Positions 6,050 through 12,258 of a DNA stretch of 64,000 nucleotides are shown here, one piece after another. Below the pieces are notes generated by a model. The model did not search any database. It saw only the letters and a list, made by a program, of their open reading frames with translations, and had not been told where the DNA came from. The first letter of the stretch is position 1. Each line of letters starts with the position of its first letter. The translations under genes and the position numbers were made by a program. The stretch comes from Methylocystis heyeri (GTDB lineage Bacteria; Pseudomonadota; Alphaproteobacteria; Rhizobiales; Beijerinckiaceae), in the NCBI RefSeq assembly GCF_004802635.2, contig NZ_CP046052.1, forward strand, positions 3,511,501 through 3,575,500, given 5' to 3'.

Positions 6050-6811
6050 GCTACGGCTTGCGACCGCTTCTCGGTTCACTACAATCCAGATTGCCGTCTT
6101 TGACCGTCGCCAGCGGCTGCGGCTTGCGACCGCTTCTCGGTTCACTACAATTTCCTACCTCACAGCCACACTCGACGGCTTGCTGCGGCTTGCGACCGCT
6201 TCTCGGTTCACTACAATATCCACCGTCATCGGGTTTGGCTCCCCCCAGCTGCGGCTTGCGACCGCTTCTCGGTTCACTACAATGCGGACAAGGCCACATG
6301 GCGCGCCCATTGGGCTGCGGCTTGCGACCGCTTCTCGGTTCACTACAATATTCCTTGATGGTTTCCATCACGAGCACCCGCTGCGGCTTGCGACCGCTTC
6401 TCGGTTCACTACAATACGGGCGCGCCTGAGCATCCGCGATGGCGTGCTGCGGCTTGCGACCGCTTCTCGGTTCACTACAATGTCCGGCGTAATCGGAAAC
6501 ATCGGTCGTGCGCTGCGGCTTGCGACCGCTTCTCGGTTCACTACAATCGGCGGGGCGGGAAGCGCTGTTGGACACGAGCTGCGGCTTGCGACCGCTTCTC
6601 GGTTCACTACAATACGACGGCGACGGCGGCGTGTTCGCGATCTGCTGCGGCTTGCGACCGCTTCTCGGTTCACTACAATTGAAACCGCCGATCGCATCCG
6701 TGCCTCTGTGCTGCGGCTTGCGACCGCTTCTCGGTTCACTACAATGGCCGGCGAGGCGGCGATGCAGCTCCGCCAGCTGCGGCTTGCGACCGCTTCTCGG
6801 TTCACTACAAT
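6050..6811 (+). CRISPR. Type II-C CRISPR array, 12 repeats and 11 spacers
   Basis: Twelve 36-base repeats begin every 66 bases from 6050, with eleven spacers of exactly 30 bases. On the plus strand the repeat starts GCTGCGGCTTGCGACCGC and ends CTCGGTTCACTACAAT. All copies read by eye are identical except the first (6050), which has A instead of G at position 4. That points to the left end as the old, leader-distal end. The tracrRNA antirepeat pairs with the plus-strand repeat, so crRNAs read left to right as spacer then GCUGCGG. Each repeat holds TTGCGA (positions 9-14) and TACAAT (31-36) spaced by 16 bases. This would be a promoter in every repeat, as known for Neisseria and Campylobacter II-C arrays. 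Confidence 0.98.
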
Positions 6812-6869
6812 GCCCCCGCCGTAAATGCCTGAAAAAGCGCCGTAATTTTGCGGCGGGGGCATCAAAAAA
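6812..6869 (-). promoter_or_regulatory. CRISPR leader-like flank with hairpin
   Basis: Directly after the last repeat is an inverted repeat with 10-base arms, GCCCCCGCCG at 6812 and CGGCGGGGGC at 6851, followed by ATCAAAAAA. Nearly the same sequence occurs next to the orphan repeat after cas2, in the opposite orientation. The segment is therefore conserved as a unit with a repeat, as expected of a leader. Transcripts started by the last repeat's own promoter would run into this hairpin. It lacks a U-tract in that direction, so it is not a classical terminator. The leader function is inferred. Confidence 0.6.
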
Positions 6870-7072: not shown

Positions 7073-7136
7073 TAAGCCGCAAACTGCAGTGAACCGGGCG
7101 CGCTCAGCCGTGGGAGTTGCATACCGAAAGCGTCCT

Positions 7137-7175
7137 AAAACAACAAAACTCCCCAAGCGTTAGCCGGAGGAGTTT
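7137..7175 (-). terminator. Rho-independent terminator of tracrRNA
   Basis: On the minus strand AAACTCC and GGAGTTT form a stem around a 16-base loop. A T-rich tail (TTTTGTTGTTTT) follows. Confidence 0.75.
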
Positions 7176-7260
7176 AAATTGGGGCGACTGACCTTGGGTT
7201 GCCCAGCCCGCGCGAAGGGTCATTTGCTTGCGACAAGCGACCGCCTCTCGGTTCACTACG
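7138..7260 (-). ncRNA. tracrRNA
   Basis: Read on the minus strand, a transcript starting near 7260 begins with an antirepeat (GTAGTGAACCGAGAGGCGGT). It is complementary to about 23 of 26 bases of the crRNA repeat. It continues TCGCTTGTCGCAAGC, AAATGACCC, then a stem region with GGGCTGGGCAACCCAAGG, and ends in a terminator hairpin. The body closely resembles, as I recall it, the Parvibaculum lavamentivorans II-C tracrRNA (TCGCAAGCAAA, GACC, CCCAAGGTCAG). It is expected to pair with pre-crRNA, be matured with RNase III and load Cas9. The start is inferred from the promoter-like pair upstream. Ends are approximate to about 5 bases. Confidence 0.88.
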
Positions 7261-7265
7261 ACGCC

Positions 7266-7294
7266 AGAATGGCATCGTAAGCGTGGCTTGGCAA
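7266..7294 (-). promoter_or_regulatory. Candidate promoter for the short tracrRNA
   Basis: On the minus strand TTGCCA (plus 7289-7294) and CATTCT (plus 7266-7271) are spaced by 17 bases. A start about 6 bases downstream would fall at 7259-7260, exactly at the beginning of the antirepeat. The -10 match is weak; position supports it more than sequence. Confidence 0.4.
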
Positions 7295-7315
7295 GGCCGA
7301 GCCTGAATGACGAAA

Positions 7316-7351
7316 GATCGCAAGCCGCAGCTAAACAAACGTCTTAGGTCG
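7316..7351 (-). ncRNA. crRNA-like half repeat with pseudo-spacer upstream of tracrRNA (candidate natural single guide)
   Basis: On the minus strand 7331-7316 reads GCTGCGGCTTGCGATC. This matches the first 16 bases of the array repeat with one change, and this is the part that pairs with the tracrRNA. It sits about 55 bases upstream of the antirepeat on the same strand. A longer transcript would therefore contain both guide-side repeat and tracrRNA and could fold on itself. The bases that would act as PAM-proximal seed (GTTTGTTTA, plus 7332-7340) recur at 7412-7420 between this element and cas9. The design resembles the tracr-L natural single guide of type II-A systems. Function is inferred. 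Confidence 0.45.
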
Positions 7352-7411
7352 ACGGTCGCTATGAACACACGTTAGTAGCGGATCATTTGGGTGAACGCAA
7401 AATTTATTACA

Positions 7412-7460
7412 TAAACAAACCAACAATTCTGTTGACCGGACCGTACACCCATGATTGAAA
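7412..7460 (+). promoter_or_regulatory. cas9 upstream region: seed-match site and candidate promoter
   Basis: TAAACAAAC at 7412-7420 repeats the nine bases next to the crRNA-like half repeat. TTGACC at 7432-7437 followed after 17 bases by TTGAAA at 7455-7460 is a possible, weak cas9 promoter. The 7261-7609 gap holds no gene other than the tracrRNA elements. Confidence 0.35.
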
Positions 7461-7609
7461 TTGTCGTCAGATGCTACTGCGATTCGTTTCCTCAGGTTTC
7501 AAGGAAACGCGCGATTTGGCGAAGAACGGTTTGAAGAACGGATAACGCGGCGACATATCCGCCAGCGCATCTGGGAACCTGCGGATAATTCAAACTTTGA
7601 GCGTCTGAT

Positions 7610-10600
7610 ATGCAGCGCATTTTTGGCTTCGACATCGGCACGACCTCCATCGGATTCGCGGTCATCGACTTCGGCAAGGAACGCAAGGCCGGGAAAATCC
7701 TCCGCCTTGGGGCGCGCATTTTTCCCGAGGCGCGCGACCCCGACGGAACGCCCCTGAACCAGCAGAGGCGTGCAAAACGGATGATGCGGCGGCAATTGCG
7801 CCGACGCCGCGAACGCCGACGCTCGCTCAACGAACTTTTGTCTTCGTTCGGACTTCTGCCGCCTTTCGGCGGGAAAGAGTGGGACGAGATCATGAAGCTC
7901 GATCCCTACGCCCTGCGCACCCGGGCGCTGGGCGAGCTTCTGGAGACCTTCGAACTCGGGCGGACGCTCTACCACCTCGCCAAGCGCCGCCACTTCAAGG
8001 AGCGCGATATCGCGGAAACCGGCGAAACCGAAGCTCCCGAGGCGCCCGTGGCGGAAGAAGCGCCGTCGAAGCGCCGTAAGGGGATCTCCAAGCAGAAGGC
8101 CGAAAAAGAGCAAGAGGTCGCGGACGAGGCCAAAGCCGCCGAGGCGAGGGCGCATTTTACCGCCGAGGTCAAAGCTTCCGGCCAGACCATCGGGGCGTTT
8201 TTGTCCCAGCGCAAGAGAGACGCGGTACTCCGCGGCGAGCGCGAAAGCGATGTGAAGCTGCGCGGCGAACACGCCACCCGCGCCCTGGTCGAAGACGAAT
8301 TCGAGAAAATCCTGGCCGCGCAGGAGGCGCATCATCCGGTTCTCAAGGACTCCGCCTTGAAGGGCGCGCTGCATGAGGCGATTTTCGCCCAGCGGCCGGT
8401 ATTCTGGCGTAAGAAAACGTTGGGAAAATGCCGCTTCATGCCGGAAAGTCCGCTATGCCCCAGGGGCTCGTGGATTTCGCAGGAACGGCGAATGCTGGAG
8501 AAGGTCAATAATCTCGAATTTTTAGGCGGCAATGCGCGCCCGCTCGACGCCGAGGAGCGATCGGCTCTGATCGAAGCGCTTCGGGTGAAACCGAAACTGA
8601 CGTGGGCGCAGGCCCGCAAAATCCTCGAACCCCAGTTCGAAAAACGCGGCGAGAGCGCCAGGGCGCTCAAATTCAATCACGAGACCGACAAGGATCAGGC
8701 CGCCGGCCTCAAAGGGAATCTGGTGGATGTCGAGCTGAACAAGGCCTTCGGCGCGGCCTGGGCGAATCACCCGCGCAGGCAGGAATTACGCGAGTTTCTG
8801 CCCGAGGCGCTTTGGCGCGCCGATTACGGAGAGATCGGCGACCAACGCGTCGTCATCCGGTCGGCGCAAAAACGCGCCGAGCAGCGACGCGAGGTCGCCG
8901 CGCGGCTCGCCGCTGAATTTGCCGTCAACCACGAAATCGCAGCATCGCTTTCGCAATTGCATTTCCCGCAAGGCTGGGAGCCCTACTCCACCGAGGCGCT
9001 GCGGATCATGCTGCCGGAGCTGGAAGAGGGAACGCGCTTCGGCGCGCTCCTCAACGGCCCGGATTGGGCCGGATGGCGCGACGAATATTTTCCCGAACGC
9101 GAGCAGCCGACAGGCCAATTTCTCGATCTTCTGCCCAGCCCACGCGCGGATCGCCATGCGAGTACCCCCCAGGAAGAAGAGGCGGAACGAATATCACGGG
9201 TCCGCAACCCAACCGTTGTGCGGGTGCAGAACGAACTGCGCAAAGTGGTCAACAATCTGATCAGGGAATATGGCAAGCCGGACCTCATCCGCATCGAACT
9301 CGCGCGCGACGTCGGGAAATCGAAGCGCGAGCGCGAGGAAATGCAAAAGGGGATGCGCGATCGGGAACGGCTGCGCGAAAAAGCGCGAAAAGATTTGAAA
9401 GAAAAGGGTATCGCCGATCCGAACGACGACGATGTAGAAAAATGGCTGCTATGGAGGGAATGCGGCGAGGAATGCCCCTACACTGGTGCCAGGATCGCTT
9501 TCGCCGATCTTTTCGGCGGCAATCCCGCCTTCGAAGTGGAACACATCTGGCCACGGTCGCAATCGCTCGATAATTCTCTGCGCAACAAGACGCTGTGCGA
9601 AAAGCGGGCGAACCGCGACAAGGGCGCGCGAATTCCTTTCCAATATTTTCGAGATCGACCCGACGCTTGGGCCGCCGCCAAGGACCGCATCTGGAAATTG
9701 GTCGCAAAGGGCGGCATGACCAAAGGCAAGGCCAAGCGCTTTTGTGCGGAATCTATGCCGGACGACTTCGCCGGACGCCAGCTCAACGACACCAGCTACG
9801 CCGCCCGGGAAGCTCGTGCTTTTCTGGAGCGCCTATGGCCCGATGTCGAAATCAAGGGATCGGAAATCAATGTGCGGCCGGTGACCGGCAAGGTCACAGC
9901 GCAACTGCGCCGACGTTGGGGGCTCAACCATATTCTCGCGGATGACGGCGAAAAAACGCGCGAGGACCATCGTCATCACGCCGTCGACGCACTCGTCGTC
10001 GCCTGCGCCGACAACGGCAATACGCAAAGGCTTTCGGAATATTTCGCCAAGGAATGGGACGCGCGGCATTATGGAACCCCGAGGCCAGAGGCCGCGCTCG
10101 TTCCCGAACCCTGGCCGACGATCCGGGAAGACGCCAAGCGAGCGGTCGATCAGATCATCGTCTCGCACCGTGTGCGCAAAAAAGTTTCGGGGCCGCTGCA
10201 CAAAGAAACCTCTTATGGCGACACTGGCGTGGACGTGACGAACAGCAACGGAACCTACCGCCTCTTTGTCTCGCGTAAGCCTCTGGCGTCGCTCTCGAAA
10301 AGCGAATTGGGCGATATTCGCGACGAAGGCGCGAGACGCATCGTCGAGGATTGGGTCGAGGCCCGTGGCGGCGATCCGAAAAAAGCCTTCGCTGCATTCC
10401 CGCTCCGTGGTCCCGACGGCCCTGAAATCAAGAAGGCTCGCCTTATCGCGCCGCAGAAATTGCGGGGGATGGCGCCACTCAAGAACGGCTACGCAACGAC
10501 CGGAAACAACCATCACATCGCCATTTACCGGCTACCAGACGGAAAAATCGAGGGCCGGGTCGTCAGCCTCTACGAAGCGGCAAAACGCATGGCGCGACAT

Positions 10601-10873
10601 GAGCCGGTGATAAGCCGCCAAAGCTACGAACGCGGCGCCTTTTTGATGTCGCTTTCGCTCGGCGACACTTTCTTCGTCCCAAGTGGAGAGCGTGTCGGCT
10701 ACTGGGTGGTGAATTCCATCGCCGGCAACGGTCAAATGTTCTCTCGACCGATCAATGACGCAGGAAAGGACTCGAAAAGCCAATGGGGGCCGAGTCCAGG
10801 GCCTCTCGTGAAACTCGGAGCGAAAAAAATCTCGGTCGATCCCATCGGCCGCGTCCGCCCAGCAAACGATTGA
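7610..10873 (+). CDS. cas9: CRISPR-associated endonuclease Cas9, type II-C
   Basis: At 1087 residues this is a compact Cas9. RuvC-I has FGFDIGTTSIGFAVIDF (Asp8). The arginine-rich bridge helix is RRAKRMMRRQLRRRRERRR (about 53-71). RuvC-II has IRIELARDV (Glu563). HNH runs about 618-670, with CPYTG, VEHIWPRS (His645) and LDNSLRNKTLC. RuvC-III has DHRHHAVDALVVACAD (His790, Asp793). All catalytic residues are present, so both nuclease sites should work. A charged, low-complexity insertion (Glu/Ala/Lys-rich, about 136-180) follows the first recognition-lobe helices. The absence of csn2 and cas4 next to it supports subtype II-C. cas1 starts 6 bases after its stop, so cas9-cas1-cas2 form one operon. 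Confidence 0.98.
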   Translation: MQRIFGFDIGTTSIGFAVIDFGKERKAGKILRLGARIFPEARDPDGTPLNQQRRAKRMMRRQLRRRRERRRSLNELLSSFGLLPPFGGKEWDEIMKLDPYALRTRALGELLETFELGRTLYHLAKRRHFKERDIAETGETEAPEAPVAEEAPSKRRKGISKQKAEKEQEVADEAKAAEARAHFTAEVKASGQTIGAFLSQRKRDAVLRGERESDVKLRGEHATRALVEDEFEKILAAQEAHHPVLKDSALKGALHEAIFAQRPVFWRKKTLGKCRFMPESPLCPRGSWISQERRMLEKVNNLEFLGGNARPLDAEERSALIEALRVKPKLTWAQARKILEPQFEKRGESARALKFNHETDKDQAAGLKGNLVDVELNKAFGAAWANHPRRQELREFLPEALWRADYGEIGDQRVVIRSAQKRAEQRREVAARLAAEFAVNHEIAASLSQLHFPQGWEPYSTEALRIMLPELEEGTRFGALLNGPDWAGWRDEYFPEREQPTGQFLDLLPSPRADRHASTPQEEEAERISRVRNPTVVRVQNELRKVVNNLIREYGKPDLIRIELARDVGKSKREREEMQKGMRDRERLREKARKDLKEKGIADPNDDDVEKWLLWRECGEECPYTGARIAFADLFGGNPAFEVEHIWPRSQSLDNSLRNKTLCEKRANRDKGARIPFQYFRDRPDAWAAAKDRIWKLVAKGGMTKGKAKRFCAESMPDDFAGRQLNDTSYAAREARAFLERLWPDVEIKGSEINVRPVTGKVTAQLRRRWGLNHILADDGEKTREDHRHHAVDALVVACADNGNTQRLSEYFAKEWDARHYGTPRPEAALVPEPWPTIREDAKRAVDQIIVSHRVRKKVSGPLHKETSYGDTGVDVTNSNGTYRLFVSRKPLASLSKSELGDIRDEGARRIVEDWVEARGGDPKKAFAAFPLRGPDGPEIKKARLIAPQKLRGMAPLKNGYATTGNNHHIAIYRLPDGKIEGRVVSLYEAAKRMARHEPVISRQSYERGAFLMSLSLGDTFFVPSGERVGYWVVNSIAGNGQMFSRPINDAGKDSKSQWGPSPGPLVKLGAKKISVDPIGRVRPAND

Positions 10874-10879
10874 TCCGCC

Positions 10880-11812
10880 ATGCTGCGCAAAACGATCGAA
10901 ATCGCGACGCCGGGAACGCGGCTTTCAGTCGCCTTACGCCAGCTGGTAATCGAGCGGCCCGAACAGCCCAAAGCGACCCTACCTATCGAAGACATCGGCG
11001 TGCTCATCGTCGACGACCGCCGCGCGAGCTACACGCAGGCGGTTTTCATTGAGCTGCTCGCGGCCGGCGCCACGGTCATGGTGACAGGGCCGGACCACCT
11101 GCCTCTCGGCATGATGTTGCCGCTCGACGCCCATCATGTCCAAACAGAACGCCACCGCGCACAGATCGAAGCAAGCGAGCCCATTCGCAAACAGATTTGG
11201 AAAGCCCTGGTTTCAAACAAGCTTTTGCAGCAAGGCCGCGTGCTCGATCATTTCGGAGCCAAGCCCAACGGCCTCGCCGCGATGGCGGGCCGGGTCCGCT
11301 CTGGCGATCCCGACAATCTGGAGGCGCAGGGCGCGCAGCGCTATTGGCCCTTGCTTTTCGGAAAGGATTTTCGACGCGACCGCTCGGCGGAGGGGATCAA
11401 CGCCGCGCTGAATTATGGTTACGCGGTGGTGCGCGCGGCGCTCGCCCGTGCCGTGGTGGCGAGCGGACTCATTCCCTCGCTCGGCGTTTTTCACAAAAAC
11501 CGCTCAAACCCCTTTTGCCTCGCCGACGATCTCTTCGAGCCCTACCGCCCTTTGGTCGATTGGCGGGTGAAGCTGCTGACGCAGGAGCGGGGGGAAGAAC
11601 CCCTGAATCTGGAAAACCGCGCCATTCGCGCGGCCCTGCTTTCCCTGTTTAACGAAACCGTTCTGATCGGCGACCGGAAGTTGCCGCTGCTTCTCGCCAT
11701 CGAAGCCGGCGCCGCTTCTCTTGCGCGCGCCCTCACCGCCGGCGACCGGACGCTGGTTTTGCCCAAAAGCGTGCCTCTCGGCCAGGACGTCGCGGCGGAT
11801 ACGGAAGGGTGA
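10880..11812 (+). CDS. cas1: CRISPR-associated integrase Cas1
   Basis: The 310-residue Cas1 is of normal length for type II. The metal-binding residues are visible: Glu148 in DNLEAQGAQRYWP, His205 in GVFHKNRSNPF, and Asp216/Glu220 in LADDLFEPYRPLVD. With Cas2 it forms the complex that integrates new spacers at the leader end of the array. In type II systems Cas9 helps to select PAM-bearing protospacers. It is coupled to cas9 by a 6-base gap, and cas2 follows 4 bases after its stop. Nothing suggests decay, so the adaptation module looks functional. Confidence 0.97.
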   Translation: MLRKTIEIATPGTRLSVALRQLVIERPEQPKATLPIEDIGVLIVDDRRASYTQAVFIELLAAGATVMVTGPDHLPLGMMLPLDAHHVQTERHRAQIEASEPIRKQIWKALVSNKLLQQGRVLDHFGAKPNGLAAMAGRVRSGDPDNLEAQGAQRYWPLLFGKDFRRDRSAEGINAALNYGYAVVRAALARAVVASGLIPSLGVFHKNRSNPFCLADDLFEPYRPLVDWRVKLLTQERGEEPLNLENRAIRAALLSLFNETVLIGDRKLPLLLAIEAGAASLARALTAGDRTLVLPKSVPLGQDVAADTEG

Positions 11813-11816
11813 GGCG

Positions 11817-12170
11817 ATGGCCAGGAAGCTCCGGGCGCCTGATCTGCCCTGGGGATGGCGCAGCATGTGGGTCATCGCCATGTTCGACCTTCCGACCGAT
11901 ACGCCGGCTGCGCGAAAGGCCTATGCGCGTTTTCGAAAGAACCTGCTCGAGGACGGCTTCACCATGATGCAGTATTCGATCTACACGCGGCACTGCGCTT
12001 CAATGGAGAACGCCGACGCCCACATCGCCCGAATGGGCCAAAAACTGCCCCCGGCGGGCGAAGTCCGGTTTCTCGCCATCACCGATCGGCAGTTCGCTCG
12101 AATCAAGGTGTTTTGGGGCAAAAAACGGCAAAAAGGCGCTCCGGCGCCCTCGCAAATGGAACTTTTTTGA
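11817..12170 (+). CDS. cas2: CRISPR-associated endoribonuclease/adaptation protein Cas2
   Basis: The reading frame opens further upstream inside cas1, but ATG 11817 is preferred. It follows the cas1 stop by 4 bases with a GAAGGGTGAG ribosome site and gives MARKLRAPDLPWGWRSMWVIAMFDLP. The ferredoxin-like start WVIAMFDLPTDTPAARKAY carries the conserved Asp24. RKNLLEDGFTMMQYSIYTRHC is typical of type II Cas2. The length of 117 residues is normal. Its last codons and stop (CTTTTTTGA) are the start of a segment duplicated beside the array, which matters for the history of the locus. Confidence 0.96.
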   Translation: MARKLRAPDLPWGWRSMWVIAMFDLPTDTPAARKAYARFRKNLLEDGFTMMQYSIYTRHCASMENADAHIARMGQKLPPAGEVRFLAITDRQFARIKVFWGKKRQKGAPAPSQMELF

Positions 12171-12258
12171 CGCCCCCGCCGCAAATTTACGGCCGTTTTT
12201 CAGTGGTTTGCGGCGGAAGGAAATTGTAGTGAACCTAGAAGCGGCCGCAAGCCGCAGC
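12163..12258 (-). repeat. Inverted orphan CRISPR leader plus single degenerate repeat
   Basis: Positions 12223-12258 are the reverse complement of the array repeat with two mismatches (CTAG for CGAG, GGCC for GGTC). Positions 12163-12222 match the array flank 6812-6869, including TTTTTTGA, GCCCCCGCCGCAAA and the CGGCGG end. No second repeat follows. It is a minimal leader-repeat unit mirroring the main array at the other side of the cas genes. The repeat's TACAAT faces cas2, so any transcript would be antisense to the end of cas2. Confidence 0.85.

Follow-up and report, generated by a model that had tools for sequence, protein, structure and literature searches.

Here we describe a type II-C CRISPR-Cas locus of Methylocystis heyeri, contained in a window of 64,000 nucleotides (the whole stretch of DNA that was analysed), in which a truncated copy of the CRISPR repeat lies in the gap between the tracrRNA and cas9. 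The explanation that we prefer, and put forward tentatively, is that the locus carries a lineage-specific, tracr-L-like natural single guide, which probably binds the tracrRNA-cas9 gap itself. In this explanation a long form of the tracrRNA gene would start upstream of position 7331 on the minus strand, would be transcribed and would be loaded into Cas9. The long RNA would constitute a natural single guide, because base pairing is predicted between its truncated repeat copy and its own antirepeat. The bases ahead of the repeat copy would serve as the guide, the last nine of them matching positions 7420-7412, where Cas9 would bind without cutting because the match is short. Such binding would lower the transcription of cas9, and perhaps also that of the long RNA itself.

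Layout of the locus

The CRISPR array (6050-6811) is composed of 12 repeats of 36 bp, the first with one change, and 11 spacers of 30 bp. Its crRNA sense is the plus strand, an orientation that follows from the pairing of the repeat with the antirepeat. The tracrRNA gene is encoded on the minus strand and comprises the antirepeat (7226-7259), a body 3' of the antirepeat (7181-7225), which by eye resembles the same part in related loci, and a terminator made up of a stem-loop and a T-rich stretch (7138-7180), which was placed from the sequence, the terminator scan and the fold. The duplex of crRNA repeat and antirepeat covers almost the whole repeat, with an energy of -63.3 kcal/mol. Scanning of 7100-7640 for terminators returned a single stem, at 7169-7151, as compared to 0.8 expected in shuffled sequences. 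On the plus strand, profile search identified cas9 (7610-10873), coding for a protein of 1087 aa, followed by cas1 (10880-11812) and cas2 (11817-12170). The locus was assigned to type II-C because it has Cas9, Cas1, Cas2, tracrRNA and array and because the list of open reading frames, when read through, showed no cas gene beyond these three; the profile search was confined to these proteins. A saccharopine-dehydrogenase-like protein is encoded on one side of the locus and a glutaredoxin on the other. Comparison of the window with Rfam gave three sub-threshold matches only, one of which overlapped the tracrRNA on the opposite strand, and no relatives of this Cas9 were found in the plasmids or viral contigs searched. 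Shortly upstream of cas9, the tandem GAAGAACGG-TTT-GAAGAACGG occupies positions 7521-7541 and is possibly an operator.

A truncated repeat copy upstream of the antirepeat

A sequence-only reading of this DNA had noted, on the minus strand upstream of the tracrRNA, a 16-base copy of the crRNA side of the repeat with one mismatch, and the observation was borne out. Positions 7331-7316 read GCTGCGGCTTGCGATC, which shares 15 of 16 bases with the array repeat at its 5' end (GCTGCGGCTTGCGACC...), the first 14 bases being identical throughout. The copy begins exactly at the first base of the repeat and lies on the same strand as, and upstream of, the antirepeat (7259-7226). By arithmetic, an exact 14-base copy of the repeat start is expected in a 350-bp gap with a chance of one to three in a million; its presence is far beyond chance. 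Past base 16 of the copy, no homology to the repeat could be detected (1886 of 2000 shuffles were as good), nor was there extra pairing (727 of 1000 shuffles as good).

For an RNA whose first base is at 7331, the predicted fold paired 12 of the 16 bases of the copy with the antirepeat stretch with probabilities of 0.93-0.97 and the last two with probabilities of 0.86 and 0.71, while two bases stayed free in an internal loop, as they do in the crRNA:tracrRNA duplex. The single mismatch of the copy would become a G-U pair with the antirepeat. The part of the repeat that is retained corresponds to the lower stem, the internal loop and the first upper pairs, and in the long RNA a predicted hairpin (7256-7280, minus strand) would connect the side of the repeat copy with the antirepeat. 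The RNA from 7331 to 7138 had a folding energy of -80.6 kcal/mol, whereas its shuffles averaged -66.6 kcal/mol (z = -3.0; none of 200 was as good), a z-score to which the tracrRNA's own stems contribute in part. No terminator was found between repeat copy and antirepeat in the scan of 7100-7640, the only one being the stem at 7169-7151, behind the antirepeat. Sequence and predicted fold together support a natural-single-guide architecture.

The repeat copy is preceded by the 20 guide-like bases of the putative single guide (7332-7351, minus strand), the last nine of which, GTTTGTTTA (7340-7332), form the seed. When the guide is part of the RNA, the first two bases of the copy were predicted to pair with the antirepeat stretch with probabilities of only 0.25-0.38, because the seed competes. 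For seven of the nine seed bases, the probability of being unpaired was 0.03-0.26 when the RNA started at 7352 and 0.13-0.42 when it started at 7366, the partner being 7228-7222. Keeping the seed single-stranded would cost the free long RNA about 3.1 kcal/mol, and Cas9 binding might prevent this pairing.

A different role would involve no DNA target: the antirepeat and the bases adjacent to it would be paired with the repeat copy and the guide-like bases. The long form might thereby keep the tracrRNA away from the crRNA or provide a double strand for RNase III; we consider such a role improbable. Predicted pairing of the copy with the antirepeat, and of the seed with 7228-7222 in the free RNA, is what either role would call for. 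However, the crRNA duplex is far stronger than the pairing of 7331-7291 with the antirepeat (-63.3 versus -36.9 kcal/mol), and the guide pairs with the tracrRNA no more strongly than shuffled guides do (178 of 1000 as strong). Moreover, the recurrence of GTTTGTTTA at 7412 is left unexplained.

A nine-base match in the tracrRNA-cas9 gap

The natural single guide proposed here takes its target from that recurrence. As the sequence-only reading had it, the seed occurs again in the same orientation at 7420-7412; both copies of GTTTGTTTA are on the minus strand, and there is no third site in the window. The whole genome (4,727,788 bases) contains eight copies, two of them in the tracrRNA-cas9 gap. 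At the putative target (7412-7420, minus strand), which is flanked on the PAM side by TGTAATAA, the guide matched exactly nine anchored bases and 11 of 20 bases overall, and its next best anchored match in 7262-7640 was four bases long. The same reading had cautioned that nine bases may match by chance, and the caution could be given a size: a match of at least nine bases was reached in 11 of 2000 dinucleotide shuffles of 7341-7609. In the real sequence, 328 guide boundaries are possible within 7262-7609, and four of them reached a match of at least nine, two of these being the two ends of the GTTTGTTTA pair and the other two the tandem GAAGAACGG at 7521 and 7533. With p at about 0.005-0.012, a chance origin of the match is unlikely. 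Nor is the match too short, since the lengths given for tracr-L in the available text of two publications are 9 bp (PMC8730458) and 11 nt (PMC8616872). On the sequence, the target at 7412 is a plausible hypothesis.

At the six other genome sites of GTTTGTTTA, the anchored match to the guide was 9 or 10 bases long and 11-13 of 20 bases agreed overall, no worse than at 7412. These sites, one of them with ten anchored bases (L160), raise the alternative that the Cas9-loaded RNA acts on another gene, in the manner of the scaRNA of Francisella. None of the six exceeds ten anchored bases, and we regard a single guide with such another target as unlikely.

Protospacers and the PAM

Spacer 10 (6680-6709) was identical at 30 of 30 bases to positions 3093657-3093686 of the organism's own genome (contig C1; L111). 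This site falls within a gene of the phage Mu GemA family, and a Mu-type transposase is encoded nearby. Spacers 1, 9 and 11 also matched this prophage region, with 26, 26 and 25 of 30 bases identical, respectively. The bases downstream of the four prophage sites are CGGCCCTC for spacer 10, CCCCATAA for spacer 1, GGCCTTGA for spacer 9 and CCTGAAAG for spacer 11. PAM position 4 is C in three of these four, resembling the NNNCAT PAM of Parvibaculum Cas9, whereas the 7412 target (TGTAATAA) has A. This four-site comparison speaks mildly against the target at 7412. Such data are too few to decide, because only one of the four matches is perfect, and that one lies in a resident prophage that may have escaped. 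Two sites in family genomes, L139 (spacer 11, 26/30, followed by GAACCGGG) and L129 (spacer 10, 25/30, followed by TGCTGGCA), were left out of the count because they were not shown to be phage, though they match as well as three of the four prophage sites; at position 4 these two carry C and T. Weaker sites for spacers 6 and 9 (22-24/30) were left out as well. The cell evidently tolerates a self-targeting spacer, that is, spacer 10 against the resident Mu-like prophage.

To infer the PAM, the array was compared with phages (best 40 of 71 matched records, E up to 10), plasmids (best 15 of 124 matched records), 39 genomes of the genus (at E up to 0.1, 30 of them matched, the organism's own included) and 397 genomes of the family (43 with matches at E up to 0.003). 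One spacer matched 27 plasmid records at about 92% over 24 bases, which we judged to be chance, and three 20-base spacer ends had no match in viral contigs. Relatives of the prophage tail gene were taken from 12 viral loci and four other genus genomes, and no site in them reached 24/30; L140 and L141 were best at 23/30, and none of the remaining 14 loci had a site of at least 22. The arrays of the related loci yielded no trusted protospacer, and against phages none at E 0.1. For extra arrays seen in two family genomes, the stretches examined contained neither a match to cas9 nor a tracrRNA motif.

Candidate promoters

The TTGACC hexamer that had been read as a -35-like box next to the target is indeed present on the plus strand, the strand of cas9, at 7433-7438, but no sigma-70 promoter was found around it: scanning of 7100-7640 gave none, against 0.4 expected. 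By eye, the related loci show a -10-like box about seven or eight bases ahead of the antirepeat. At this position the window has CATTCT, with TTGCCA 17 bases upstream of it. This weak candidate (7266-7294, minus strand), which is absent from the promoter scan, lies between the repeat copy and the antirepeat and could possibly yield a short tracrRNA. For the long form, our guess, also by eye, is a very weak candidate at 7400-7372 on the minus strand (TTGCGT, 17 bases, TACTAA; three of six positions per box), where the scan likewise reported no site.

The proposal of the sequence-only reading, that this II-C locus has an equivalent of tracr-L that gives Cas9 autoregulation, accordingly divides into two parts. 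Its single-guide architecture agrees with sequence and predicted fold. Autoregulation is hinted at by a seed match that is unusual (about 0.5-1%), but this is set against a lack of PAM support, of a recognisable promoter at the site and of any relative with the element.

The module is lineage-specific and the locus is rearranged

We compared the locus with 12 related loci (L002-L011, L088 and L089) whose Cas9 is 50-60% identical. They represent ten distinct loci, since L004 is wholly inside L009 and L006 inside L008 (all 200-base words shared). The repeat copy was found in the gap of none of the 12 (ten distinct). The distance from antirepeat to cas9 was 43-66 bp in all 12, the cas9 start of L006 being placed by analogy with L008, as compared to 350 bp in the window. 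The sequence-only reading had named, as a finding that would refute its proposal, related loci that conserve tracrRNA and cas9 but not the seed match. Taken literally, this is what was observed: all 12 related loci retain both genes and have neither the copy nor the long gap. Among 39 genomes of the same genus, the stretch 7130-7610 was present only in the organism's own. The module of repeat copy and gap is, by sequence, lineage-specific among the genomes compared. As the relatives are without the whole module, its absence from them does not show that it is inactive here, and conservation neither supports nor refutes its function.

The array flank at 6816-6869 is an inverted copy (85%) of 12163-12216, and the two enclose the whole cas block. 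The array is located upstream of the tracrRNA here, whereas in the 12 related loci the repeats sit on the other side of cas9. On that side the window retains a lone degenerate repeat (12223-12258, minus strand), 1350 bp past the end of cas9. The inverted flank and the lone repeat look like the outcome of array relocation by inverted duplication. It is conceivable, and we offer the idea with reserve, that this type II-C locus independently evolved a natural single-guide tracrRNA for the autoregulation of Cas9: a rearrangement would have dropped a repeat fragment beside the tracrRNA and widened the gap, and the gap would then have supplied both the guide and the bound site.

The main rival to a self-targeting guide draws on the same traces. 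A rearrangement may have left the repeat fragment and its flank between tracrRNA and cas9 as a functionless relic, the nine-base match being chance. We consider this doubtful, albeit a serious contender. The marks of rearrangement are clear (inverted flank, position of the array, lone repeat at 12223-12258), the copy breaks off after 14-16 bases, all 12 related loci are without it, and the p value of the match leaves some room for coincidence. A mere leftover would, however, have had to keep just that part of the repeat which is predicted to be still able to pair, in an orientation and order that suit a single guide, and next to a seed word, GTTTGTTTA, that is rare genome-wide.

Three other origins were tried and dropped. 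A degenerate mini-array, with a second repeat past the 7412 site, was set aside because its similarity did not exceed that of shuffled sequences (reached by 329 to 842 of 2000), and tandem duplication joining both GTTTGTTTA copies found no support in flanks that were no more alike than shuffled ones (768 and 2000 of 2000). Derivation of the guide from a former phage spacer was likewise rejected, its last 18 bases having no exact match in viral contigs.

Comparison with known natural guides

In S. pyogenes (type II-A), tracr-L is a long tracrRNA that acts as a single guide with a short match ahead of the cas genes, as described in the available text of three publications (PMC8616872, PMC8730458, PMC11417352). 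As far as that text goes, the two systems are alike in the long form serving as single guide (here putatively), in the short match before the cas genes and in the placement of the extra part upstream of the short tracrRNA. They differ in subtype, the present locus being II-C with cas9-cas1-cas2. They also differ in that the tracr-L target, according to the same text, lies beside a known PAM and its repression was measured, whereas the target and the repression here are putative. Lastly, no related locus has the element described here (0 of 12). In our explanation the element would work like tracr-L, yet it is not a member of the tracr-L family as defined, being of another subtype, having no relative with it and being a putative repressor only.

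The scaRNAs of Francisella novicida (II-B; PMC8730458) and Neisseria meningitidis (II-C; PMC13431127), as far as covered by the available text of these sources, resemble the element in having a derived repeat copy or an sgRNA-like fold near the CRISPR locus, and further in their Cas9 partner and their part in regulation. Going by the same text, scaRNAs are separate transcripts, whereas no terminator between copy and antirepeat was found here, and the meningococcal scaRNA acts on an mRNA (PMC13431127). Of the features of a scaRNA, the locus has a derived repeat able to pair with the antirepeat (-36.9 kcal/mol, predicted) and does not have a separate terminator. A further likeness is to Listeria, for which Guzina et al. 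2018 (PMC6199352) describe in silico, in the text available, two pairing repeat-like segments in one transcript upstream of cas; those segments belong to type II-A, and no self-target is discussed in that text.

For type II-A, natural single guides have been described that repress the cas genes of their own locus. According to the available text of a review, the long tracrRNA was not found in subtypes other than II-A (PMC8616872), and among the open-licence papers listed by our searches none reported such a guide for type II-C; on both grounds the element, if confirmed, is probably new. Confirmation would mean Cas9 autoregulation with a separate origin outside type II-A. The II-C case, if true, would indicate that the trick evolves repeatedly, with a short piece of repeat next to the tracrRNA as its starting point, and it would provide a recent, lineage-specific example whose origin can still be read. 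How this strain controls its Cas9 activity is a pertinent question, because one of its spacers perfectly matches its own prophage.

Similar elements in a wider survey

We surveyed 76 further loci, mostly from Bacteroidota, of which 38 had an array and 29 an automatically called antirepeat at most 900 bp from cas9. Among the 29 loci with both repeat and antirepeat, a 14-base copy of a repeat end was present in the gap of a single one, L086. At positions 2384-2640 of this locus, from a metagenome-assembled genome of Flavobacteriaceae, a crRNA-like repeat end lies between tracrRNA and cas9. It is followed on the minus strand by what appears by eye to be a terminator-like hairpin with a T-run, and it adjoins a truncated duplicate of the cas9 start. 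By eye, this element is possibly scaRNA-like, and it offers a lead for a wider search for such arrangements. Matches of 10-12 bases in L022, L045, L050 and L067 were provisionally judged to be the antirepeat itself, off-register or chance. L022, a Bacteroidales Cas9 locus, carries a degenerate CRISPR repeat copy beside its antirepeat, at positions 2708-2742.
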